Source: Candidatus Methanomethylicia archaeon
GTDB taxonomy: Archaea; Thermoproteota; Methanomethylicia; Culexarchaeales; Culexarchaeaceae
Reading direction: 5' to 3'
DNA length: 64,000 nucleotides
Assembly (NCBI GenBank): GCA_025058215.1
Contig: JANXEO010000001.1
Location: 248,001-312,000, forward strand
Shown: in pieces, positions 19,959 to 23,081 of the stretch
Layout of the letters: every line of letters begins with the position of its first letter
Position numbering within the stretch: the first letter of the stretch is position 1
Translations under genes and position numbers: made by a program
Notes under the pieces: model-generated
What the model saw: only the letters and a program-made list of their open reading frames with translations
What the model was told of the DNA's origin: nothing
Database searches by the model: none

Positions 19959-20888
19959 ATGCGTTTAAAGGGACGTGACTTTATAGAGATTACCGATTTC
20001 AATAAGGATGATTTTGAGTATCTTTTTGAACTAACAAACAAAATGGAGAAATATGCTAAATCAAAATGTTCATTATTAGAGGACAAAATTTTAGCTCTAT
20101 TATTTTTTGAACCTAGCACGAGAACTAAATTAAGTTTTGAAGCGGCTATGCTTAGATTGGGTGGTAGTATCATTGGTTTTTCAGAAGCATCGACATCATC
20201 TGTAGCCAAAGGTGAAAACCTAGCAGATACAATTCGTGTAGTAGAAAACTATAGCGATTGTATAGTAATAAGACATCCATTAGAAGGAGCTGCCAAGTTA
20301 GCTGCAATTTTTTCAAAAGTGCCTGTTATTAATGCAGGTTCAGGTGCTTTATCACACCCAACACAGGCACTTTTAGATCTTTATACTATCCACAGGGAGA
20401 AGGGGAGAATAGATGGTCTTAACATAGCGCTCATTGGGGATCTTAAATATGGACGCACAGTACATTCGTTGGCATATGCACTTGCGAATTACGACGTAAG
20501 GTTGTATTTTGTATCACCACCAGAATTGCGTATGAGACATGAAATACTAGAAGATTTACGCGAGAAAGGGGTCAAATTTAATGAATATTATGAGGTAAAA
20601 ACAAATATTTTAAAAGATGTAGATGTAATTTATGTCACACGAATTCAGAAAGAACGTTTTCTTGATTTAAGTGAATACCAGAAAGTAAAGAATACTTATA
20701 AGATAACAGTTGAAATAATAAAAGATTGTAAACCAGATGTCATTATAATGCATCCATTACCACGTACTGATGAATTAGATCATCATATAGATGCTATGCC
20801 AAGCGCTAAATATTTCATTCAAACATATTATGGCCTCTTAACTAGAATGGCATTACTTTATGCAATACTTGGAGAAAGCGAATTATGA
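19959..20888 (+). CDS. pyrB: Aspartate carbamoyltransferase catalytic chain
   Basis: A 309-residue enzyme condensing carbamoyl phosphate with aspartate, the first committed step of pyrimidine synthesis. Motifs: [13 protein letters not shown] (carbamoyl-phosphate site, Ser 53 to Glu 61), [19 protein letters not shown], and [11 protein letters not shown] near the C-terminus (aspartate/transition-state site). Length is normal. The ATG has no ribosome site and may be leaderless. Its last six bases overlap the end of the convergent NrdD-like gene. Confidence 0.96.
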
Positions 20889-23081
20889 TAAATATACTTC
20901 GAACTCCTTTGTTTGATTAGTTTTCGTGTAGGTGTTGAAATATTTTGAATAATGAACTATACCTGATGAAATCTTGCAATAACTACATCTTTCGAGTGTG
21001 CCAGACAACAATTTTCCACAATTTTTACAATATGTAAAATCCTTTGAAAATGTAAACAGAGCTAGTTTTTTATCGTTTATTAATTGCTTTAAATTGTCAA
21101 AAATAGTTTCATTAGAGGGAATAAGCTCTCTAAAATGTATTTTGAAATAATGACCACCAAGCATTTTTTTGTGGAATACTGATTCAACCTCTATTCTTTT
21201 GTTTAGTGGAATTTTAATGTTGTGAGGTATTAATGTATTACATGTATATTCGTTTATTCCGGTGCCAATTTTATCATTTATTGTTTTAAGTCCATATCTA
21301 AGAAAATCTGATAACAGTAATCGCCTACCAGCATTTTCAATACTGCATTCTGTAATGTTTATTTGTTGATGATCTTTTAATACTTCTAAAATTTTATCCA
21401 CAACTTTTTTTGCAAAAATTAATGATTCACTTGATTCATGAATAAGTTTTCCTGTGTGAATCTTTACACTTTCATATAATCCAATGATGCCAATATTACT
21501 ATACAAATCCTCAACACAGTTGTAATCGTTACCATTAACTTTAATATACGTGAGCATAAGTGTTTTTCCATTTATTCTTTCCCTACAATTGTTTAATGCT
21601 TTTATGCTTAGTTCTAGACTTTCAAGTAATTTTGTAAAAAATTTTTCGTCATTTCCTCTAGAGTCTAATGCTATTCTTGGTAAATTTAGTAAAACGGTAC
21701 TTAGAATCCCAAAACTACGTTGGCACGAATTATCATATGTTATTCTTGAAAGATCCCAGCAATAACTTGCATTTTTATTGTCTTCCCAATCTAAGTTTAC
21801 TATTATTGGGGTGCTCCATTCACGAATTAATTTGCATATTTCATTTACTTCTTCATTATAAACTGAATGCTTAAAAATATGTGAATCTACTTTTATTATT
21901 GGTAATGGAGTAAAAAATGCTTTTTTATAATAATCTCCTATGTGAAGGTTCTTAGTAAATGCTTTAAACAATAGAAGTTTTTCCTCAAAAAAACCGTCTT
22001 TTTCTAAACTTTTGTCAAGTTTTAATCCTATAGCTAATGGTTGGAAATTCCATCTGAATTCTGGTAGCTGATTTAAGTAAAAAATCAACTTTCTCACTTT
22101 ATCAACAATTTCTTCGTAACTCATGTTTTTAACTAATGGTGCTAACATTACATTTATATCATCTAACACTTGTCCTACTGAAATTTGCATTCTTACAAAG
22201 TAAATAATTTTAATTATGTTTTCTAGAGCATCATCTAGATTTTCAGCACTTTTTATTTTTAATGAGGTAGTTTCTAAATCATCAAGGTTTAATTCGCAAT
22301 TTAAGAAGCATGAAGCATTATGATGAATAGATTCTGGCAACATACTCCAGTATGATAAATTGTTTAAATTAATTAAACCAGATATATGCGCATCAGATAT
22401 TTCACGCGGTAATTTTTTTATGAGTATATATTCGCTTATTACGGCATTTCCAGCTTTAAAATATATATTTAGAGGTGATGTTAGTATTCGTCTCCTCTTA
22501 TAAATCATCCTTTCGACATCATATACGGGCAAACCCAGTCGAGTCATGGAGTGCCTATAATCTTCTAAACCGTGTTCCAGTAATATAGAATTAACCACTT
22601 CTCTTATTAGTGGTGCGGTTAAGTATTTAATATCACTTTTTAAAATCCTTTCTTCAGCTTCTTTAGCTATCTGTTCTGCCAATTTAAGAGGCATACTCGT
22701 TTCACGCATTAATGCTTCTACTATTCTTCTTCTTTCGAATGGTTCCATAGTTAGACCTGATGTTCTTACAAGAAGCATTCTCTCCTTTTTTATGATTTTA
22801 TTTTCAAATTCCTGAATTAATAATGCAATGTCTTCTCCAACATCAGTTAATTTATACACTCTTTTTTCGACGTCTTCCTTGATTACTCCTGCATTAATTA
22901 GTATCTTTAAATGATGTGCGAATTTTCCAGAGTCCTTCTTAGGGTCGAGATTAAGTTCTAACATTAAATCAGAGAATGTGGCTTCTCTTAGAAGGTACAA
23001 TTTTATTATTATATTTCTACGTGTACTATTTCCTAGAGCTTTTAAAACCCTCTCTAACATTATGTTGTATGTTTTAGGCAT
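20883..23081 (-). CDS. ArsR-type HTH + ATP-cone + NrdD-like protein without glycyl-radical motif
   Basis: A 732-residue fusion. Residues about 8-95 form an ArsR-like winged helix ([14 protein letters not shown], then [15 protein letters not shown]). Residues about 101-190 are an ATP-cone nucleotide-sensing domain ([37 protein letters not shown]). The rest resembles anaerobic ribonucleotide reductase (NILPR-like [13 protein letters not shown]). At the C-terminus the zinc-site cysteines are kept (685, 688, 699, 702), but no RxxGY glycyl-radical motif follows; the tail reads [14 protein letters not shown]. So it looks like an NrdD-derived regulator or an inactive reductase rather than a working NrdD. 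No NrdG activase gene is nearby. It is preceded by about 280 bp before tRNA-Pro. Confidence 0.72.

Follow-up and report, generated by a model that had tools for sequence, protein, structure and literature searches.

An ArsR-type winged helix and ATP-cone on a degenerate NrdD scaffold: a probable nucleotide-sensing regulator of ribonucleotide reductase genes in archaea

Results

Gene and domain architecture

On the minus strand of the window (the whole 64-kb stretch of DNA that was analysed) lies an unbroken reading frame of 732 amino acids, which runs from an ATG at 23081 to a stop at 20883. The gene and its domains, with the basis of each assignment, are:

20883..23081, minus strand: HTH/ATP-cone/pseudo-NrdD gene, 732 aa (ORF, Pfam, NCBIfam, fold)
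22782..23060, minus strand: ArsR-type winged helix-turn-helix, residues 8-100 (Pfam/NCBIfam and fold of the N-terminus)
22893..22943, minus strand: putative DNA-recognition helix, residues 47-63 (G52-K/R53-F54-x-H/Y56-H57-L58, near-invariant in 101 members)
22512..22772, minus strand: ATP-cone, residues 104-190 (Pfam and family conservation)
21042..22484, minus strand: degenerate NrdD alpha/beta-barrel body, residues 200-680 (Pfam and fold)

Derivation from NrdD, which the initial annotation had proposed, was confirmed by both profile and fold. Pfam NRDD covers residues 211-711 (1.4e-57), and class III NrdDs are the top PDB matches (Foldseek, E 1e-24) of an AlphaFold2 model of the full protein that was built from 42 homologues (mean pLDDT 84.6). 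The ATP-cone was matched by Pfam above its cut-off (residues 110-175, 9.7e-6). At the N-terminus, the profile matches to Pfam DUF7347 (5.9e-6), Pfam HTH_5/ArsR (0.0017), and NCBIfam HTH_metalloreg (9e-7) all fall below cut-off; residues 1-104 modelled alone (pLDDT 92.5) gave as best Foldseek matches the ArsR/SmtB repressors CzrA, CadC, and SmtB (TM 0.66-0.73). The fold confirms the earlier placement of an ArsR-like domain N-terminal to the ATP-cone. Residues 1-257 contain no cysteine, the first being at 258, so this ArsR-type head has no classical metal site. The tandem of HTH, ATP-cone, and NrdD recurs in about 100 dereplicated homologues, which excludes both a chance fusion and an artefact of assembly.

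The 3' end of the gene overlaps by 6 bp the 3' end of pyrB (19959-20888, plus strand). Upstream of the gene, and divergent from it, is a tRNA-Phe gene (23363-23450, plus strand); a GNAT gene also lies upstream. Elsewhere in the window, two neighbouring genes of the V-type-ATPase region carry a 121-bp direct repeat (18796-18916 and 19154-19274, 98% identical), which gives both the same stretch RADDMAKKIIEEAKKEGEKIIEAAKKQAEEILNNEIK; it looks like a recent duplication, a gene conversion, or an assembly effect.

Lost and retained NrdD residues

The window protein was aligned with archaeal NrdDs, with the P. copri and T. maritima NrdDs as the source of reference residues (PMC11226230, PMC4493059), including the HxHD triphosphate-binding motif (PMC11226230) and the SCCR motif that contains T. 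maritima C329/C330 (PMC4493059). The alignment located the following sites:

22359..22370, minus strand: NLNN (residues 238-241), replacing the HxHD triphosphate-binding motif
22329..22331, minus strand: S251, replacing the first-strand catalytic cysteine (Cys171 of P. copri NrdD)
21756..21767, minus strand: S439-Y440-C441-W442, replacing SCCR (T. maritima C329/C330)
20976..21029, minus strand: zinc-site cysteines C685, C688, C699, and C702, retained
20934..20936, minus strand: N716, replacing the radical glycine (Gly711 in P. copri, Gly621 in T. maritima)

The glycyl radical motif, previously noted as missing, is indeed gone: asparagine stands at the glycine position in the context KYFNTY, and RxxGY is absent. 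The zinc cysteines, noted as kept, are all four in place. A check of the active-site cysteines revealed losses that go beyond what had been described, since the first-strand cysteine, the HxHD motif, and the first cysteine of the CC pair (now Y440) are replaced and the NxN substrate flap is deleted. Only C441 is left of the CC pair, and this residue is not conserved across the family. Judged by its sequence, the window protein is thus not an NrdD by function: three features that define NrdD are absent from it, while the barrel fold and the four-Cys zinc site are present.

Loss of catalysis and inverted conservation across the family

We compared 101 dereplicated members of the HTH/ATP-cone/NrdD family with 18 archaeal NrdDs; the CC motif before NLPR was scored by motif scan, and could be scored in 90 family members and 15 NrdDs. 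The first-strand cysteine is present in 0/101 family members and 18/18 NrdDs, and CC before NLPR in 0/90 and 15/15, respectively. The NxN flap was found in a single family member (1/101, relative to 18/18 NrdDs), histidine as the third residue of HxHD in three (3/101, relative to 18/18), and the radical glycine in 17/101, relative to 17/18. The 17 members with glycine at the radical position are mostly from Methanomethylicia and have it in a changed context, R/K-x-Y/F-G-R/K; their glycine counts against reading the protein as a regulator. Each zinc cysteine is kept in 95-96 of the 101 members, and in some lineages the tail, or the entire zinc and glycyl domain, has been deleted. Two shortened members of 583-599 aa (L049 and L050), for example, have lost the zinc and glycyl domain and kept the HTH and ATP-cone.

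These counts bear on whether the protein might still work as a class III reductase, its radical glycine having moved and other cysteines serving the active site. The body fold is kept, C441 lies near the position of the radical loop, and some Methanomethylicia members retain a glycine at the radical position; against this, neither the first-strand cysteine nor the CC pair survives in any member in which it could be scored, the substrate flap and triphosphate motif are gone, and some members lack the whole glycyl domain. In addition, the gene is kept in genomes without NrdG, and an intact NrdD, with NrdG, is encoded separately in the closest complete relative (described below). We regard continued reductase activity as extremely improbable.

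What the family conserves is the reverse of what NrdD conserves. Mean pairwise identity within the family is highest in the ATP-cone (0.65), and declines through the HTH (0.44) and body (0.33) to the glycyl tail (0.22); among true NrdDs the order is cone 0.41, body 0.46, and tail 0.53. Seven residues of the ATP-cone (I120, L124, E127, R160, R181, G183, and P185) are invariant in all 101 members, and R106, E113, and R176 are kept in 100/101. The recognition helix is similarly constrained, with G52, H57, and a lysine or arginine at position 53 in 101/101, and F54 in 100/101. A conserved cone and recognition helix combined with lost catalysis is the pattern expected from selection for nucleotide sensing and DNA binding.

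Distribution and origin

Homologues were found with an alignment query; a single-protein scan of close relatives gave no matches. In at least 94 of the 151 relatives searched, a match extends over the HTH part, and the family is found in Culexarchaeia, Methanomethylicia, Bathyarchaeia, Asgard, and probably Nitrososphaeria. The homologue of Candidatus Culexarchaeum nevadense, which belongs to the same family as the window genome, is 54% identical, and that of the Methanomethylicota MAG SJ3.Bin40 is 56% identical. Other carriers are Methanosuratincola, Methanomethylicus, many Bathyarchaeota, and Hecatellales, and, within Asgard, Freyarchaeota, Jordarchaeia, and Helarchaeota. In the tree, one branch separates all HTH proteins from all NrdDs, and a protein without the HTH (L071b) groups with NrdD; by this topology, the family has a single origin. 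A divergent NrdD type, with an RVVGY site and its own ATP-cone, adjoins the HTH gene in some Bathyarchaeia (L093:5541-7649, L094:5333-7453, and L100:10480-12600); together with the NrdD of L068, it makes up a separate clade.

Gene neighbourhood and RNR gene content

No ribonucleotide reductase (RNR) gene adjoins the HTH/ATP-cone/pseudo-NrdD gene in the window, whose genome is 46% complete, and this position counts against the regulator reading. The homologues were examined at 76 dereplicated loci, each with 1.8 kb or more of downstream sequence; these loci are not all independent, as several come from the same Bathyarchaeia families. At 20 of the 76, an RNR gene (14 class III, 6 class II) lies within 1.8 kb, in every case downstream and on the same strand; none was found on the opposite strand, and none upstream in the 63 loci that also had enough upstream sequence. 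Adjacency at only about a quarter of the loci likewise counts against a regulator. The arrangement is most regular in the genomes of group f12, which from their gene content appear to be Nitrosopumilaceae: 17 of 18 have a class II nrdJ downstream of the HTH gene, across a gap of 197-435 bp. In many loci, the HTH and RNR genes are separated by intergenic regions of 160-570 bp with conserved promoter elements. NrdG above cut-off was absent from five f12 genomes and from G056, and present in the majority of those genomes tested that have an intact NrdD.

When genomes were searched for a true NrdD, NrdG, or NrdJ, the closest complete relative (G001) proved to encode an NrdD and an NrdG that look functional; its intact nrdD, a class II nrdJ, and the HTH gene are located at separate places. 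The nrdD of this genome encodes an RVTGY site, is preceded by a glutaredoxin-like gene, and adjoins nrdG. Such glutaredoxin-like genes, of 85-95 aa, are found directly before true nrdD in many of these archaea (L052, L053, L054, L062, L064, and others), and likely encode an NrdH-type reductant partner. Several class II RNRs have 1000-1300 aa, and some nrdD/nrdJ frames are very long, up to 1728 aa (L055:92-5278, L056:1136-4450), with what look like intein insertions.

A paralogue that stands beside a working RNR of either class, and that carries a DNA-binding head, is best read as an RNR regulator. The same adjacency would also fit a subunit, and the inactive NrdD copy might be an allosteric partner that acts on a true NrdD or class II NrdJ through its ATP-cone, with the winged helix as a protein-interaction module; retention of the NrdD dimer-type body and zinc site agrees with such a role. 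One protein would then need to bind two unrelated RNR classes, however, and a helix surface of the conserved kind is typical of DNA-reading ArsR proteins, while the separate intergenic regions with their promoter elements are not what a subunit predicts. We consider an allosteric partner unlikely.

Promoter elements and a candidate operator

In several Bathyarchaeia, the HTH gene is preceded at a distance of 17-45 bp by the element ACTYTAATTTTTTAAAC. When one mismatch was allowed, 14 of the 15 distinct matches in the 1.8 Mb examined preceded HTH genes (12) or an adjoining nrdD (2); its three exact matches in 16 whole genomes all precede HTH genes. As a universal operator this element was rejected: at one mismatch it is not specific genome-wide in AT-rich genomes, and it is absent before most unlinked nrdJ genes. 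In Methanomethylicia, ATCN followed by ATTTTTTTAAATNNNNNACTC, again with one mismatch allowed, has 11 matches in 14 genomes, all before nrdD, and none in the control. The ATTTTTTTAAATNNNNNACTC element occurs without mismatch before the class II nrdJ of G056, where it runs into ACTCTAATTTTTT. A sequence like ACTCTAAAAGTTTAGTG is present in the glutaredoxin-nrdD promoter of all three Culexarchaeum-group genomes examined. The Bathyarchaeia, Methanomethylicia, and Culexarchaeum elements are alike (ACTCTAA and an A/T run), suggesting one operator type at the regulator's own, nrdD, and nrdJ promoters.

Outside its source loci, a weight matrix gave modest enrichment only (p 0.006 for HTH), and no common element was found before most unlinked class II RNR genes. 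That the candidate elements differ between lineages counts against the regulator reading. Two other approaches yielded no operator: the top 7-mers of an unbiased scan upstream of HTH genes resembled tRNA sequence, and a palindrome before one Culexarchaeum-like gene, AAGAGTAATATACTCTT, is not kept in sister genomes. These tRNA-like 7-mers are over-represented ahead of the homologues from other archaea, and the window gene itself has tRNA-Phe upstream. GATC is enriched upstream in the Nitrosopumilaceae-like set, whose sequences are related to one another.

One candidate was located in the window:

23343..23359, minus strand: candidate operator ACTCTAATTTTATAAAG, two mismatches to the Bathyarchaeia element, 261 bp upstream of the gene

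This is the sole match in the 64-kb window, and it has the right orientation. As 452 kb of the genome contain three matches of this type and the reversed control two, and as the site abuts tRNA-Phe on the other strand, we treat it as a lead.

The promoter data also bear on whether the protein is a nucleotide-responsive regulator with other main targets, or another nucleotide ligand, for which proximity to RNR genes is a coincidence in some lineages. Consistent with this idea, the gene lacks an adjacent RNR gene in the window and in most Methanomethylicia, the unlinked class II genes share no element, and the promoter elements are lineage-specific. Against it, the gene repeatedly stands just ahead of an RNR gene, of one class or the other, and never lies in a different orientation to it; moreover, a near-identical element precedes nrdD in Methanomethylicia and the class II nrdJ in G056. 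We judge this explanation slightly less probable still than that of an allosteric partner.

Discussion

We propose, with a probability of roughly 0.8, that the protein descends from NrdD and now regulates the transcription of RNR genes by sensing ATP/dATP. The initial annotation had suggested a nucleotide-sensing regulator built on a reductase scaffold; that suggestion is strengthened by the family-wide loss of catalytic and substrate residues, by the near-invariance of the cone and recognition helix, and by homologues that lie directly upstream of two RNR classes and persist in genomes without NrdG. In its own genome, the window protein would bind DNA, take ATP/dATP as its ligand, and regulate RNR.

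In the mechanism we postulate, the dead reductase body would supply a dimeric frame, the ATP-cone would read the balance of ATP and dATP, and the N-terminal winged helices would bind the promoter DNA of RNR genes and, in many cases, that of the regulator itself. When dATP is high, it would most likely displace ATP in the cone and rearrange the dimeric body, shifting either how the protein oligomerises or how its DNA-binding heads are spaced; the dATP-bound protein would then occupy the promoter and repress, and the ATP-bound protein would release it. Repression and the direction of the switch are argued by analogy with NrdR, which binds DNA once its ATP-cone holds dATP as well as ATP (PMC9110341), and with P. 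copri NrdD, which goes from dimer to tetramer with dATP (PMC11226230). Repression is also favoured by the overlap of several candidate elements with TATA-like sequence. Retention of a large body that a simple sensor would not need counts against the regulator reading.

Like bacterial NrdR, the family couples an ATP-cone to a DNA-binding domain, has genes near RNR operons of any class, and likely shares an RNR-specific role and self-regulation. This combination of architecture and RNR linkage is found at 20/76 loci in relatives, while the window gene itself is unlinked. The two differ in construction: NrdR consists of a zinc ribbon and ATP-cone in about 150 aa, whereas members of the family, at 580-790 aa, combine an ArsR winged helix with a cone and body taken from NrdD. 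With no match to NrdR (TIGR00244) in its own genome, the window protein is a functional counterpart of NrdR, not a member of it. NrdR has been described as rare in archaea (PMC9110341); among the 151 relatives, it was found above cut-off in five, all of one family (f10), so that its role is otherwise vacant. Those five genomes (G040, G097, G109, G121, and G136) contain a true NrdR and an HTH/ATP-cone/NrdD protein together.

The protein is homologous to class III NrdD across the whole body, and shares with it the ATP-cone, the ten-stranded barrel fold, the C-terminal four-Cys zinc site, and the NLPR motif; it differs in lacking the radical glycine, first-strand cysteine, CC, NxN flap, and HxHD, and in its additional N-terminal winged helix. 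The fold and helix order of the DNA-binding head are those of the ArsR/SmtB repressors CzrA, CadC, and SmtB, but the head of the window protein has no classical metal site, and sensing has probably moved to the fused ATP-cone. Reuse of an enzyme scaffold as the sensor of a transcription factor is known from the ROK repressors. Compared with such enzyme-derived regulators, the scaffold here is a glycyl-radical reductase, and its working paralogue would be the regulated gene. Our search of open-access journal papers found no description of an archaeal ArsR and NrdD/ATP-cone protein.

With somewhat less confidence than in the regulator itself, we think it probable that the family is an ancient transcription-factor family of TACK and Asgard archaea, which arose by one ArsR-RNR fusion followed by loss of catalysis. 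It would sense ATP/dATP with the inherited ATP-cone, and repress class II and class III RNR genes in the role of NrdR; a remnant effector site may read other dNTPs. The finding suggests that, in many archaeal genomes, genes annotated as anaerobic ribonucleotide reductase are not reductases, an error that corrupts inferences on anaerobic DNA-precursor synthesis. It would also show clearly how an essential enzyme can become the regulator of relatives that still work, and the family offers a testable answer to how dNTP supply is controlled at the level of transcription in archaea, apparently including the ammonia-oxidising archaea.
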